From Auricularia sp. M13 (taxonomy: Eukaryota > Basidiomycota > Agaricomycetes > Auriculariales > Auriculariaceae), in contig CM073200.1 of NCBI GenBank assembly GCA_037042915.1, positions 2,600,832-2,664,831 on the forward strand: 64,000 nucleotides of DNA, written 5' to 3'. Positions within the stretch are counted from its first letter, which is position 1, and the number at the start of each line of letters is the position of its first letter. A program made the translations under genes and the position numbers. Shown in pieces: positions 20,796-37,458 of this stretch. The notes under the pieces were generated by a model. That model was not told the DNA's origin, did no database searches, and worked only from the letters and a program-made list of their open reading frames with translations.

Positions 20796-21445
20796 TATCC
20801 CCCTTATTCTGCACAAAAATAAAAACCTCCAAATGAGACCTTCCTCCACCCTGAGAAACTATTCCATCCTAGAATTGATGTCCATCCCAAAATAAGCGCC
20901 CACCCTCCAAATGGGGATCTGTCCATCCAAACTGGGCGATGTCCATCCCAAATAAGCGCCCATCCTTCCAAAATGACCCCCCTCCAATTCTTGTGAGGAT
21001 ATCCATCCCAGCCATGCTTTCCATCCTAAATATTATATAAGCAGTCCTCATCGGCAGAGCTGAGAATCTCGGACTGAACTCGAGCCCGAACTCCGGATGC
21101 TTCCAAGTAGGCTTTTCAGGCTTCGGCCGCAAACTCGGAAGCATCCGGAGTTCGGGCTCGAGTTCAGTCCGAGATTCTCAGCTCTGCCGATGAGGACTGC
21201 TTATATAATATTTAGGATGGAAAGCATGGCTGGGATGGATATCCTCACAAGAATTGGAGGGGGGTCATTTTGGAAGGATGGGCGCTTATTTGGGATGGAC
21301 ATCGCCCAGTTTGGATGGACAGATCCCCATTTGGAGGGTGGGCGCTTATTTTGGGATGGACATCAATTCTAGGATGGAATAGTTTCTCAGGGTGGAGGAA
21401 GGTCTCATTTGGAGGTTTTTTTATTTGTGCAGAATAAGGAGGATA
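20796..21445. mobile_element. 650-bp fold-back hairpin element
   Basis: Two arms of 309 bp (20796-21104 and 21137-21445) are near-perfect reverse complements around a 32-bp spacer. The same 74-residue translation appears on both strands. Each arm contains two diverged copies of a unit around GTCCATCCCAAAATAAGCG. The outer ends read TATCC at the left and GGATA at the right, then TTATTCTGCACAAA inward on each arm. A 6-bp direct repeat AAGGTC (7 bp if the end is trimmed by one base) flanks the element at 20790-20795 and 21446-21451. That marks a true insertion. No protein is encoded. It is best described as a fold-back MITE; the superfamily cannot be set from the sequence alone. Confidence 0.8.
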
Positions 21446-21879: not shown

Positions 21880-23686
21880 CTAGATGGTGGAGTCAGCGCC
21901 GAGCTCGCCAGCGGCCTCCGACGAGGAGAACGCTGCTCGCTTAATAGTCGACTCGCTGCCCAGCTCGCCAACGGTATCGGCAGAGGTGAAGGCCGCGCGC
22001 TTGATCGTACATCAGCAAAGTTGGTTTTTGCTCACGAGGCTCGTCAAGCCTCGTCGAGCCTCGTGAGCACTCAAGCGACTCAAGCTCGTACACAAAAGGT
22101 CCGCCTAATTTTGTTCAGGCGAGCTCGTCAAGCGTCTCAAGCTTTGCCGAGCTTGACGAGCTTGAGTGCTTGAGCAGCTTGACGAGCTCAGCCGAGCTCG
22201 GCCGAGCTTGACAAACAATCAAAGCTTCGTGAGCTCGCGCGTCTCCGGCCTCTCCTCACGGTCATTTCTGATTCATTGGGCCCCGTTATTTGTTCTCCAG
22301 GCCATAATGCAGTAGAAATCATAGTTTAGAATTCAGTGGTTCAGATTATGCTTCACGAGTATAGTATATACAAGCTGGCAAGGCAAGGACGCTGGAAAGG
22401 TGAGAAGCTGGACCCACAAGCGGTCTGGGAACCGACGTGTGTGTACGACGGCGTGCACAGCCTAAATAAGCGCTAGAGTCAGTGACGTGCAAACTACGCA
22501 GCTGAGCGCACACACCTTTGCATCGTGAGTTGTGACACCTATAGATGACGGAAGGGTTAGTAAAGCACCAGCGGAGCAGATCTAGAACACAGCGCAGAAG
22601 CCGGGACAGATAGCAGACGACACAGCAGACCACCGAGCACGGAGTAGACCACAGAGAACAGGGACTGCAGCTAAGAGCCTAAGACAGAGTCCCCAGAGTA
22701 GAGCAAGTCCCGTACAGCCATATTCTAGAGCCAGTGTTCAAGTCCCATATAAGTACTGCGGGAGAGGGGGGGCCAGCGCGGCGCCAGTGCAAAGAACCGG
22801 GCAGCAGACGTTGGGAGAAGGAAGAGACTTAGTGAATTTCGGCGACCGCACACCGCGCTGCAGGAATCACCCGCCAGCGACCTTTCGAGGCCAAAAAAAT
22901 CGTACGACCTTCCACAGCGAGACCAGGTGCTTGAGCTGCTTGAGGGGCTTGACCGGCTTGAGCCGTTTGGCGAGCTTGATCGTGCTTGGTGGAGCTCGAC
23001 GAAGCTCGGCGAGGATCGCTAAGCTCCGACTTGCTTCTTACCGTTTCCCAAGGAGCTCTTACTCGACGGAGGAGCTCAAACTTGCTCAAATGCCTTGAGC
23101 ACGGGAAAGCCAGCCCGAGCCAGCTCGAGCAAAAACCAACTTTGCTGATGTAGAGTCGGCACCGAGTTCGCCAGAGGTCCCCACAGAGATGACAGCTGTT
23201 CTCAAATGTCAGAGAATTCTGCAGGTGTGTGTGTTCGGGCTCGTGGATTCGCGCTCCAACGAGATGCTCCACTTCACCATACAGATTTTACTCCCGAAGA
23301 CGGCCTATGCTCTCTAAGTCCGTCCCGCGCGCAAATTCATATGGCGGCACTGCGAGCGCCCGTGGAGCGCAAATCCACTAGCCCGAACACACACAGCTGT
23401 GGAATTCTCTCACATTTGCGAACAGCTGGAACGGCAAGGCCGCTCGTTTGATTGTGGAGTCAGCACTAAGCTCTCCAACAGTCTCTGAAGCCGTGAACGC
23501 TGCTCGTTTGATCGTAGACTCGGCGCCGAGCTCGCCCACGGTCTCCGAAGAGGTGAACGGCAACGCTGCCCGCTTAATCGTCGACTCAGCGCCGAGTTCA
23601 CCAGCGGCCTCCGAGGTGAATGGCAAGGCCGCGGCGTAGGCAGCCGCAGAGCTGAGGGCGACAAGGACGATGCGGAGGGCGAGCAT
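21880..23686 (-). CDS. Kex2-type repeat peptide precursor, split by two transposons
   Basis: Secreted precursor built from about six similar units of 18-22 residues. The start MLALRIVLVALSSAAAYA is a clear signal peptide. Each unit begins AALPF or AAF, has a core like SETVGELGAEST and ends IKR; the last ends in STI before TAG (21880-21882). The Lys-Arg at each border is a classic Kex2/furin-type site, so processing should free several near-identical peptides. This matches fungal Kex2-processed repeat proteins, which include peptide signals and precursors of modified peptides. Three complete units lie at 23450-23640. The fourth is interrupted by a 236-bp MITE (23193-23428) and near its end by a 1141-bp element (22010-23150). 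The fifth and sixth follow at 21880-22007. Frame is preserved on both sides of each element. No tailoring enzyme of the UstY type is seen nearby. In this copy the full precursor is probably not made unless the inserts are removed. Confidence 0.75.
22010..22220. repeat. Subterminal GAGCTTGA-type repeats, left end
   Basis: Variants of CGAGCTTGACGAGC recur in both orientations close to the left end of the 1141-bp element. Similar copies occur at 22925-23100 near the right end. Such arrays are typical binding sites for transposase near element ends. Confidence 0.6.
22010..23150. mobile_element. 1141-bp TIR element with TA duplication
   Basis: The two ends are exact 24-bp inverted repeats beginning CATCAGCAAAGTTGG. 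TA flanks both sides (22008-22009 and 23151-23152), and one TA completes the host codon order around DST-IKR, so TA is the target duplication. TA targets are the rule for the Tc1/mariner superfamily. The interior has no transposase. It holds dense subterminal repeats of GAGCTTGA/TCAAGCTC in the first 200 and last 250 bp. It is a non-autonomous element; the superfamily is inferred from the TA target alone. Confidence 0.75.
23193..23428. mobile_element. 236-bp MITE
   Basis: Both ends carry a long imperfect inverted repeat of about 48 bp, starting CAGCTGTTC then CAAATGT and AGAGAATTC. A 2-bp direct repeat GA (23191-23192 and 23429-23430) flanks it. Taking one GA away restores the local coding frame of the peptide precursor, which supports the exact borders. 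Size and lack of coding sequence fit a MITE. Its family is not recognised. Confidence 0.7.
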
Positions 23687-28051: not shown

Positions 28052-29586
28052 CTACCACCATTTGATCTCTGTCCACATCACCGGCAAAAACACAACGCAT
28101 GCCGTCCAGAACTAGAAAGCGTCAGCACCGTCGCAAAGCTCGAGGAAGACCACATACCACCGTGATGGACCGCACGACCAATATCGGCCATTCGTCCGGC
28201 CGCGGACGGCGCATGGCCATCTTGCCCTCGGCGCTGACGCGGACGGGGCGCGGGTGGGTGAAGAGCACCCATAACGAGTAGAACGCGACGGCGAAAAAGT
28301 GCATGAAGAGCGTGAGGAAGGACGGTTTCGTCGCAGCGAGCAGCGAGACGGGTCCCTTGACGCATTCGCCGCCGAGTTCAAAGTACTTGAAGCAGCCGTT
28401 GCGAAGGACGGCAAGGTCGTCACCTGAGAACAAAATCAGCAACTGCATTATACGAAGATGGCCACTCACTCTCTGCGCCAAAGAGGTCGTAGAGAGCGAC
28501 GCTGAGGACGTTGACCGTCGCCGCGAGACGTTTCCGCTGCCAGAACCAGCGATGGGCGGCTTCCAAGACGGCGTCCCAGTCGTGCAGGTCGTCGATCGGC
28601 GCCAGCTGCTCGGCGAGAAGGAGGACGTCGTGGAACGCGACGGTCATGCCACCGCCGGTGAGCGGATGGCGCATGTTCCAGGCGTCGCCGAGCAGCAGCA
28701 CGCCCTCCTTGGCCAGCGGGCGCGCGCCCTGCATGCGGCTCGGCATGAACGAGTTGGGCATCCTCCGCAGCCGGTCGTTGGCGAGCGCGTCGCGCAGGGG
28801 CGCGTGCACGCCGGCGGGCAGGTGCGGCAGGATGTTCTGCTCGATGTGGGCGCGCAGGTCCTTGGGCAGCGGCTCGCGGACGTCGACGAGGATGCGGGTC
28901 TCGTGCGCCGCGCCCTGCTCGATCTGGTACATCAGCACGGGGCCCTGGCCCGGCACGAGCGCGACGGTGCCGCAGCCGGGCACGGGCAGCTGGGCGTCCC
29001 TGAGCACGACGCCGACGAAATGGCTCTTGACCGTGCTCGCCGTCTCGCCGCGCTCGAGGCCGAGCACCTCGGCGCGGAACTTGGACGCGTAGCCGTCGGC
29101 GACGATGACGAGCGGTGCGAGAAACGTTTCGGCCTGCTTGCCCGTCCTCGTCGTCGTCGCGCGCACGCCGAGCACGCGATAGGTGTTGTCGCACTCGACG
29201 AACTCGGAGACGGTGCCTTCGACGAGCTCGACGCCGTCCGACGCCGCCGCCGCCGCCCTTAGGTTCTGGATAAAGCGGCCGTGGTGGAAAGAGCGGCCCT
29301 GGTCGTCGTCGTTGTATGGTATGTGTACCTGGCGCCCAGCGCGCGAGTCGATGATGCAGTAGCCGCGGCAGACGACGGCGCCGATGCCCTCCGTGCACGC
29401 GCCCATGCCCAGCTTCTCCAGCGCGCGGACGCCGGCGGGCTGCAGTAGCTCGCCGACGATGCGGTCGGGCTCGGCCAGCGAGCGCTCCAGTACGCAGACT
29501 CGGCGCTTTTGCAGCGACAAGGCGCGGGCCATGGCGCAGCCGGCGACGCCGCCGCCGACAATGATCACGTCGTAGGCGTTGGTCAT
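28052..29586 (-). CDS. ERG1: Squalene epoxidase (squalene monooxygenase)
   Basis: FAD enzyme that turns squalene into 2,3-oxidosqualene, an early step of ergosterol synthesis, on the ER membrane. About 470 residues in three exons. The N-terminal dinucleotide motif is VIIVGGGVAGCAMARAL, followed by ERSLAEPDRIVGELLQPAGV. The family block VKSHFVGVVLRDAQLPVPG and the second FAD motif VLLLGDAWNMRHPLTGGGM are both present. The C-terminus has two membrane stretches, LTLFMHFFAVAFYSLWVLF and a last one ending FLPVMWTEIKWW. The final exon is short and joined through a 45-nt intron. No defect is seen. The 455-residue first exon is unusually long for this window, where most genes have many introns. It is the target enzyme class of allylamine antifungals. 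Confidence 0.93.
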
Positions 29587-30333
29587 CGTCCTGGTCGTTG
29601 GCGAGGGAAGAAGTGGCGATCACTCATCGTACCACTCGCGTTCGCGCGCTTTTTCAATCGCCGCATTCGCGGTCGCGCCCTCCGAGTCTGGGCTTTCAAA
29701 ACTCGCGTAAAATGCGCACCATCGAACCACTCTCACCACTGCTGCAGTCAGTCTAGACGGCGTAAAATTTCTGCAACCAGACTTTATTCCATTGAGACGA
29801 GCGTCCGGAAAACAGCCGACGTGAGAACACTAGTCCCTATGGCCCGCTCTAAATGAAGCTCCCGCAGGTCAATCGGTGCTGTGTGTCGATACGAATATCA
29901 TGATCAATATCTCACTCTAAATCGCGAGTAATACAGGGGACACGGCGGAGAAACGTTGCGAAATTGTGTGCAAGTTCAACCTAGAATGAACCTGACTAGG
30001 GGCCAACTCGGGGCCGCAGCGATTCTTTCTTGTGATTCATCGACAAACGCCATGAAATTATCTTGGCCAATCGTGCCGCATGCACGAAGTCAAGCGGAGG
30101 TTATTGCCTGTGTTCAAAATAGATGGTCAGCAGTTACCTATCGCGTCCCATGATCGAGCTTCCGCACCCTTCGAAGCGCTCGCAGACGAGTCGACCGTCA
30201 CAACTGCGGTCCGATCTCACCACGCTGCATCCTGCATGCGCGAAAGTGTCTGACTGTCGGCCCGGCACTGCGCATCGTGTCTCTTCCCAGGTGTGCTCGC
30301 ACGCTTCGAGGCTTTCATTTTGCCACATCAGCC
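29587..30333. other. Divergent intergenic region
   Basis: It lies between the 5' ends of squalene epoxidase and the BTB gene and should hold both promoters. I saw no clear sterol-response element or other feature. Confidence 0.35.
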
Positions 30334-34809: not shown

Positions 34810-37458
34810 TTAATCGTGTTTCCCGTGGCCATGACCGTGGGCGGCCTTGACAAAGTCTGCGCCGCGTTCTCCGATAGCGTATGCTGTACCCATCAAGTGC
34901 GTTGCGAGCATCTGTAAGCGGCGGTGTCAATGTCTACATATGAGCGACAAGAAAAATACTTTCTGACCATGGGCAGAATCGACACATCGACGACACGCAC
35001 GTTGCTTGTGCCGTATACCTTAAACTGCGGGTCCACGACGCCGTCTCGCGACTTTGGGAGCATTGCCGCAGTGCCTAGGTTGCCCACCAGGTTAGTCTCG
35101 AGACGAGACGACGGCCTGAGCTCCGACTCACAGCAGGGATGGTACGGGTTTGCTGATGTCTTGCGGATAAAGTCTAGCCACTCCTCGTCCGACGCCGTTC
35201 CCTCGGGGGGCTCAATATCATTCAGAACGATGCGAGACAACGGCAATTTGTCCGTAAGGCTACGAGCAAACTTCGCCCCAGCGAGCATGATCACACGGTC
35301 TTGAAGAATCATTGGCGTACTTCCATTGCAACGTCCAGGGACTCACCGATGTCAAGTGCCCATGCGTTGAGATCGATAGCAGGCCCAATCAAAGGATCCC
35401 CGGACTTGATATGGATACTGCCACGGGAGAACGGGTGCATGGGAATCGCCACAATCTGGATGTAGCTTGAGTTTGGTTTCACCAATGCTGGGTAAGCGCT
35501 GGCCGGTGAGGCGTATATCCTGCTGGTACGTGAGCGATGGCGCATTCATTCAGAACCGACCTTACTCAAGCGTTGCCTCATTGCTGTCAGTGGTCAGGCG
35601 GCGGCGCTGAATGGCATACTGCGCTCGAGCACCGGGGCCGAGTGGCCTGGCATGCAGCTCGCGATCAAGTTGGCGCCTCCATTCGCTGAGGGTTTTTTCT
35701 CCGGCGATGTGGCGCGCACTCATGTAAGAGATGGCGTTGATGCCTGCAGTATATATCCCGGTACGATTTTGGAGACTGAGATGAGAGAGCTCGTGAGTTT
35801 GCTTTATTGACGCGACGATCGGCGGTTTAACTCACTATTCTTCATACGCAGTTGCGTTCTTCACGGGGTCGTTGAGAATATCCCACGTCACGATGGAGTT
35901 GGGAACCTCGAACGTCTCAAAAACCATCAGGTGATCCTGGTAGTTCTCTCCGACGGAGGGCAGATCGATTAGTGCCTTGATGCCAAACTGGCCTAGAAGA
36001 GTCGCGTTCCCAATACCTGAGAGCTCGAGGATCTGCGGGGACTGAACTCCACCGCCAGCGACGATAACCTCCTTCGTCACCGGTACAGTGTATGTTTTCT
36101 TAGCAGCGAGGTCCACGTAGGTGACTCCAGTGGCGAGTATATTCCCGTCAGAATCGGGCTTGGGAGACATCTCGATCTTGACGACCTGGGCACCTGTGAG
36201 CAAGACCAGGTTCGTTCGGTGTGCGTTCGGTTCGTAGTACGACTGGGACACTGAATTCTCAGTGAAAAGTGGATGTGAGACCCATGCATACATTTGCAGC
36301 ATATGATCGCTCCTGCGTCTCCTGGTTGACAGCAAGGATGGGATTCCAAACGTAATTTGCATCCGTACCATCTCCCTAACACTTGTCAGTGATATGCAGG
36401 GCAAGTTTTTCACAGCTGACCCCATCTCTGATTGGATCCAGCCCTATTCGTAGCATTGTGTCCACGAACGGGGGGATCGCCTCGGAGTACCATTGTGAAA
36501 ACGAGGTATGGATCGGCTGCAAGATGTCAGCCGGCAGCTCTTGAACGCGCACTACAGTCGCGTACCCCATGATGTCCGCGAACGCGAGGGTCGATCGTAG
36601 CGTGCGTTTTCACTTGTAGTTCTTTGGATGATGCCGATACATTCTCGCTCTTGATGAAATATGGATGGATTTCTTTATAGCTCCATCCGGGGTTGCCCAA
36701 TTCACCAATTTCTAACCGAAGTGCAGTCAGCGTGCGGTGATATGGCACGAGTTTAACTTGGGCTCACGGTCGTATTCGACCGCACCAGCGCGCAGAAACC
36801 CCATATTATTTATCATGCTGCTGCCACCGAGCCCTTTGCCACGCGAAACGGGTATTTCTCTGTTGTCCAATGTCGGCTGTGGGGTAGTCTTGAAGTCTAG
36901 TATATCGATCAGCGCTGTGTGCAAAGACGGCGGCGAGAAACCAAGACGCACTCCAATCATAGCTCTGTGGCACAGGGCGTTAATCGTCCCTAAAGCTCAT
37001 CGGTATCTGAAAGCTACCCACAGCATTTCCCCACGTCTTTCCAACGTTCCATCCCTGTGGGACCTGCATTACGGGATGAGAAATTGAACCTATACCGGAA
37101 GGCAAAGAAAACTAACCAGCACGGCCGGGTCGTCCTGAGACTATGTAAGCGATTTTGTACAGGGTGCTTTGAATCTCCCGAACCTTGTGATAAACGCCGG
37201 CCTCGATGATTCCCACCTTCCAAGAGGTCACTTCAGACAGTCTCCATGTGCGCATCGCAGTCAGAATCATAACTCTGGTTTCCACCCTAGGTGTACATAC
37301 CTGACAGCCACCGTCGTACCTGCAGTTCCACCGCCACAGACGATGAAATCGAATTTCTGCCTAGCGAAGGTTGCCGCATCCATTTCGATGGCCGCGACAC
37401 TGCTAGCCGCCATGAGCGCAAATGAAAGGGACGTAGAGCTGGAAGTCTGAAGACGCAT
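34810..37458 (-). CDS. Secreted GMC oxidoreductase (aryl-alcohol/glucose oxidase type)
   Basis: Secreted FAD oxidoreductase of about 610 residues with many introns. The start MRLQTSSSTSLSFALMAASS is a signal peptide. The FAD motif is FDFIVCGGGTAGTTVAVR. GMC signature 1 is RGKGLGGSSMINNMGFLRAG and signature 2 is GGGVQSPQILELSGIGNATL. LPSVGENYQDHLMVFETFEV follows. The C-terminal active site has NPYHPC, then AAMLPKSRDGVVDPQFKVYG and THLMGTAYAIGERGADFV. It ends in a His-rich tail (HGHGHGKHD). It shares exon layout and sequence with 40639-43285, so the two are duplicates. Family members oxidise alcohols or sugars and feed H2O2 to wood- or litter-degrading peroxidases; the substrate here is unknown. 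Confidence 0.85.

Follow-up and report, generated by a model that had tools for sequence, protein, structure and literature searches.

A 64,000-nt stretch of Auricularia sp. M13 (GCA_037042915.1, contig CM073200.1, positions 2,600,832 to 2,664,831; hereafter the window, whose own numbering is used below) carries on its minus strand, filling positions 21880-23686, a single gene that once coded for six copies of a peptide and is now broken by two transposon-like inserts. Judging from its sequence, the gene is most likely a repeat-expanded relative of a set of short precursors that carry one core each and often lie beside genes for UstYa (DUF3328). We consider it quite probable that it is a disrupted copy of a precursor processed by Kex2, Ste13 and Kex1, probably with linear peptides of 15-16 residues as its products, and kin to these UstYa-linked single-core precursors.

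The window gene and its units

The gene runs in translation from an ATG at 23686-23684 to a stop codon, TAG, at 21882-21880, exactly the limits given in a preliminary description made from the sequence alone; that description did not give the strand, nor that the gene is not one open frame. Its count of about six near-identical units is borne out: six follow the pattern AA(LP)F...GEL...STI, of which five are readable whole and the fourth lies in three pieces (Table 1). Units 1, 2 and 4 start with AALPF and units 3, 5 and 6 with AAF, a difference of one dipeptide, so that in all six the putative cleavage site is followed by XA/XP dipeptides (AALP or AA) before the core Phe. The ending STIKR, ascribed earlier to the units in general, closes units 1, 2, 3 and 5 intact and unit 4 in pieces; unit 6 ends instead in STI and the stop codon. 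The repeated cores are accordingly separated by a dibasic KR after each of units 1-5. Both Tyr and Cys are missing from the five whole units. The N-terminus is hydrophobic and exceeds the hydropathy threshold, a call that, like all signal peptides and cleavage sites reported here, was made by eye (with the threshold as an aid here) rather than by a dedicated predictor; its start resembles those of three relatives described below (L002, L004 and L005).

Table 1. Anatomy of the window gene and its inserts (window coordinates)
Feature	Position	Strand	Basis
ATG and apparent signal sequence MLALRIVLVALSSAAAYA	23633..23686	-	translation; by-eye and hydropathy-threshold call
Unit 1 AALPFTSEAAGELGAESTIKR	23570..23632	-	translation
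Unit 2 AALPFTSSETVGELGAESTIKR	23504..23569	-	translation
Unit 3 AAFTASETVGELSADSTIKR	23444..23503	-	translation
Unit 4, first piece AALPF, up to insert 1	23429..23443	-	translation
Insert 1: 236-bp element like a miniature inverted-repeat transposable element (MITE), 66-nt terminal inverted repeats 89% complementary, 2-bp duplication GA	23193..23428		sequence and genome search
Unit 4, middle piece (..TSGELGADS..), read as ..VGTSGELGADST.., between inserts 1 and 2	23153..23192	-	sequence and translation
Insert 2: 1141-bp element, inverted ends, 2-bp duplication TA	22010..23150		sequence and genome search
Unit 4, last piece TIKR	21997..22008	-	translation
Unit 5 AAFTSADTVGELGSESTIKR	21937..21996	-	translation
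Unit 6 AAFSSSEAAGELGADSTI, then stop TAG, without KR	21880..21936 (residues to 21883)	-	translation
Leading open reading frame (ORF), 102 aa: signal, three full units, AALPF, 16 insert-1 residues, stop	23378..23686	-	translation

That this is a real repeat-unit gene is supported by a shuffle control as well as by its limits and by related genes elsewhere in the genome. Matches to GELGAESTI at 7 or more of 9 residues, extending the conserved core first described around GELGAEST, occur at six sites when 3.6 kb is read in six frames, and none of 100 order-1 Markov shuffles gave any. Differences between units are mostly synonymous: over the 15 codons counted back from STI in the five whole units, the pooled proportions of synonymous (pS) and nonsynonymous (pN) differences are 0.62 and 0.17 (ratio 0.27), unit 4 being omitted and the ten unit pairs being non-independent. 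In the nine codons GEL..STI, pS is 0.715 against a pN of 0.091; in the preceding six codons, where the first codons of unit 1 are out of register because that unit is one residue shorter, the values are 0.49 and 0.29. This bias shows past constraint on the units, not present-day use.

Both interruptions of unit 4 are transposon-like insertions, and it is unlikely that they are spliced out as introns. Insert 1 has at least 16 near-full-length copies in the genome, itself included, at 88-100% identity, with weaker or partial ones besides; because one other copy, on contig C12, is identical, the insertion is possibly recent. For insert 2, an inner 1081-bp query found at least five further whole copies at 96-97% identity and one at 75%, plus partial ones. 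Duplications at other copies read TC, TG, GA and GC for insert 1 (n=4) and CG, AA and CT for insert 2 (n=3); a mariner-like origin of insert 2, an idea raised by its TA duplication, was dropped on this account, the duplication being 2 bp of varying sequence. As both inserts lie in unit 4, the leading ORF holds three full units at most.

From these features we propose that the signal peptide would be removed on secretion, that Kex2 would cut after each KR and that Kex1 would take off the KR itself, a trimming the last unit would not need. A Ste13-like dipeptidyl aminopeptidase would then strip AA and LP, the predicted products being 15-16-mers of the form F[TS]...GEL..[ED]STI. As interrupted now, the gene could still yield no more than units 1-3.

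Relatives in the same genome

A genome search with the window ORF found loci L002 and L004 on contig C5 and L005 at C8:2316, together with the gene's own downstream units (L003). The preliminary description had named conserved Lys-Arg spacing elsewhere as a point on which its reading would turn; the spacing is kept in L002 and L004 (..GADSTIKR..GACSTI-stop) and in L005 (..GACSTIKR), all in this same genome. L002 and L004 are two-unit precursors of 56 residues with a terminal GACSTI-stop, and lie in duplicated segments that are 98.4% identical over at least 6.6 kb (L031/L032, C5:3.00 and 3.58 Mb). Of the 171 coding bases 8 differ between the two, 3 of the changes being nonsynonymous and 5 synonymous, whereas the whole alignment of 6655 positions has 65 mismatches; the precursor ORF is several times more diverged than its surroundings. 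L005 is a single-core precursor, P13, which shares both MLALR and STIKR with the window gene and is flanked by two UstYa genes. No Pfam domain was found in the three precursor ORFs tested (window, L005 and L002).

Scanning the UstYa loci detected P1, P3, P4, P6 and P14, and genome searches with P1 and P4 added P2, P5 and P7-P12. The family as counted here comprises 17 loci, a lower bound (P1-P14, the window gene, L002 and L004), among which the window gene is the most repeated; P2 is frameshifted and was read by eye, and P12 lacks the core Phe and the KR.

Short precursors with a single core, arranged as (XP)1-3-F-GPG...PF-KR, make up most of the relatives, although "single-core" is a judgement, since P1, P3 and P7 carry a further KR in the tail. 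From the Phe to the residue before KR the distance is 18 residues in 8 of 12 readable single-core precursors and 14, 16, 20 or 22 in the others. One to three dipeptides precede the core. Within eight residues upstream in 15 members, all 11 prolines other than the one adjacent to Phe keep to the X-P register, without exception. Apart from VPRP ahead of the core, P10 and P11 have the same protein sequence, and the changes in their 48 codons are all synonymous (6, against 0 nonsynonymous); their loci (L052 and L056) align over 3.2 kb at 87% similarity with many gaps, and the indel before the core is exactly two dipeptides. An exclusive X-P register and a difference of this kind are what a dipeptidyl aminopeptidase would demand, and the pattern is that of Ste13-type trimming, familiar from alpha-factor-like Kex2 precursors. 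Domains of the corresponding enzymes are present in the genome, as two P_proprotein (kexin-type) matches on C4 and one DPPIV_N locus on C8.

Tyr occurs in only 1 of 12 single-core cores (P6). We considered a core Cys as a mark of UstYa linkage, but its presence in 6 of 7 linked genes and 3 of 8 unlinked ones (one-sided p 0.08; P2 and P12 omitted) makes it a lead only; for Cys at position -4 of the core the counts are 5 of 7 and 3 of 8 (p 0.21).

Association with UstYa genes

The PF11807 profile has 16 matches in the genome, on C8, C4 and C2; a protein search returned the same 16 places and one weak extra match on C7 (E 0.04). Of the 17 family loci, eight have UstYa within 2 kb (P1-P6, P13 and P14, with P2 counted), whereas the matches and their 2-kb flanks make up 0.089% of the genome; taken as independent loci the count is 4 of 12 (binomial p 3e-10). 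These figures carry an ascertainment bias, P1, P3, P4, P6 and P14 having first been seen by looking beside UstYa, and P14 having been found in no other way. Of the nine members that the P1 and P4 searches returned outside the query's own cluster, three have UstYa nearby (P5, P6 and P13, at two loci), against an expectation of about 0.01; P7-P12 do not. The nearest UstYa match to the window copy is 96.5 kb away, and C5, home of L002 and L004, has none of the 16. Tyrosinase gave 10 matches, only on C9 and C1 and none on the UstYa contigs.

A precursor-pattern scan of nine UstYa loci (89 kb) returned seven ORFs, six of them family members, and missed P5; in a Markov-3 control of 891 kb it matched 5 times, equal to 0.5 per 89 kb. 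The seventh ORF, at L029, was judged a chance match, because its end is RR and the family signature is missing. In the 64-kb window and in a further 32 kb from other loci, the same pattern found the window gene's own ORF only. On an unrooted FastTree tree of 16 short UstYa fragments there are two types, within each of which members from precursor clusters group, with support no higher than 0.76 and 0.82; in one type the remaining members form a grade. Beside P2 the UstYa sequence contains stops; it shares 85% identity with the one next to P5, and P2 itself resembles P5. This UstYa and the frameshifted P2 (C8:2396121 and C8:2396873; L019, L055) are close copies of the pair at C8:2527, and seem, from their sequences, to be a duplicated module in which both genes have decayed.

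Among the ORFs listed for three UstYa clusters without a family member (L022, L023 and L029) there is no recognisable precursor; UstYa and other ORFs are shared, including an alpha/beta-hydrolase-like ORF common to L022 and L023 and a membrane-type ORF common to all three. L026, which pairs UstYa with P4, also holds alpha/beta-hydrolase and But2-domain ORFs.

Other features of the window

Near the gene, at 20796-21445, lies a near-perfect palindrome of two 313-nt arms, 99% complementary and 24 nt apart, perhaps a fold-back element. Squalene epoxidase and GMC oxidoreductase ORFs occupy 28420-29619 and 35835-36443 on the minus strand, with no evident tie to the peptide gene.

Alternative explanations

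The suggestion that the gene encodes a Kex2-processed precursor is supported by the terminal units without KR, in the window gene, L002 and L004: they stop at STI, just where trimming by Kex2 and Kex1 would end. This fits cleavage better than a structural repeat protein, the uncleaved cell-wall protein that had been named as the alternative. Structural proteins too can combine repeats with a secretion signal, and the Kex2-released Rep1 peptides of Ustilago form amyloid-like fibrils (PMC9769878); but KR closes every unit except the last and the related precursors are single-core, so we regard a cell-wall or Rep1-like protein, whether KR is incidental or the released peptides are structural, as very improbable. 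A chance repeat with no gene behind it has nothing but the broken frame in its favour and, against the empty shuffles, the synonymous bias and the paralogues, can practically be dismissed.

The product could alternatively be a dikaritin-like ribosomally synthesised and post-translationally modified peptide (RiPP), modified by UstYa enzymes supplied in trans from another genomic cluster. The proximity of nearly half the family to so small a fraction of the genome, the grouping of UstYa from precursor-bearing clusters by type, and the position of P13 all speak for it; the distance of UstYa from the window copy and its absence from the contig of L002 and L004, the lack of Tyr, both in the five whole units of the window gene and in all but one of the 12 single-core cores, and the placement of tyrosinase matches on other contigs than UstYa speak against it, and for the window gene we think it unlikely. 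With no UstYa within about 97 kb and neither Tyr nor Cys in the five whole cores, a linear secreted peptide is the better guess than a cyclised one. Both roles first suggested, signalling peptide and modified cyclic peptide, still stand, since UstYa adjoins some relatives and not the window copy; P13 and the other UstYa-linked members likely yield a modified product, to judge by their neighbours.

It is also conceivable, at somewhat less than even chances, that the window locus is a dead pseudogene with no product, which is compatible with its descent from a Kex2-, Ste13- and Kex1-processed precursor. Two inserts lie within unit 4, the first perhaps recent, and the ORF runs into insert 1 and then stops; on the other hand, the signal sequence and three whole units remain in one stop-free frame.

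Three points weigh against the main reading, a Kex2-, Ste13- and Kex1-processed precursor with linear products. P13, with the MLALR and STIKR of the window gene, lies between two UstYa genes, making a modified product, in the past or in trans, possible; the second unit of L002 and L004 (AVACEAVGELGACSTI) does not start with XA/XP-F; and the evidence for conservation comes from paralogues within this one genome.

Relation to known systems

Basidiomycete Kex2-processed repeat proteins (KEPs) with a STE13 signature likewise combine a signal, KR-cut repeats and XA/XP after the cleavage site (PMC6339444; PMC9769878). The cores in the available text of those papers end in W (AADW, KAPSW, XSDW) or differ otherwise, and GEL..STI is not among them; unlike KEPs, most relatives here have one core, so they would not be classed as repeat proteins. 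Precursors of the same architecture in other agaricomycetes are described as giving linear peptides, their XA/XP dipeptides probably removed by STE13 (PMC9769878). Ascomycete alpha-pheromone precursors share the Kex2, Kex1 and Ste13-type architecture with a different core; basidiomycete mating pheromones are a-type (PMC6339444; PMC9769878). Rep1 also consists of Kex2-released basidiomycete repeats, but these are 37-residue structural peptides (PMC6339444; PMC9769878). The Pleurotus SSPs were set aside as relatives, being about 18 kDa and hence different (PMC5674062). By analogy with these systems, our guess is that the peptide might serve as a signal, or in communication or interaction with other organisms. 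We know of no single-core relatives of Rep1.

With dikaritin precursors (ustiloxin, phomopsin, asperipin-2a, victorin) the family shares a signal, Kex2-flanked cores and, beside some relatives, UstYa; it differs in that the window locus has no UstYa, cores are almost Tyr-free, UstYa contigs have no tyrosinase match and most precursors have one core. UstYa/DUF3328 is the class-defining dikaritin enzyme, and because clusters missing one or more classic genes are reported, the absence of tyrosinase weighs little (PMC12048977). Pleurotus is described as having 16 UstYa-like genes, 6 of them developmentally expressed (PMC8893723). In a survey of 1461 fungal genomes, limited to tandem-repeat proteins, no more than 103 of the 1680 repeat precursors from basidiomycetes had DUF3328 nearby, for which its authors offered two readings: a different motif is cyclised, or cyclisation is scarce in basidiomycetes (PMC7329392). 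A 2025 lichen study describes UstY clusters without repeated regions, a single core being one of two possibilities it names (PMC12048977). In the literature searched, which lay outside supplements, figures and most subscription papers, we found no report of this family; of seven papers containing the string PFGPG, none is fungal by title.

Single-core and multi-core precursors are here tied together within one genome, and the precursors beside peptide-modifying enzyme genes point to a little-noticed fungal peptide family. Because the single-core precursors beside UstYa can be named individually, the idea is testable by expression and mass spectrometry. Tentatively, and with more doubt than confidence, we suggest that they may represent a basidiomycete RiPP family that has escaped notice owing to the very small size and single core of its precursors: mostly 18-residue, Phe-capped, Tyr-poor cores, trimmed N-terminally in the manner of Ste13, with dedicated UstYa pairs as the modifying enzymes and a Cys four residues from the end as a possible target. 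On this view the window gene would have branched off, with its UstYa partner lost and its core multiplied, and would capture a change between two states, a modified product with one core and an unmodified peptide in many copies.
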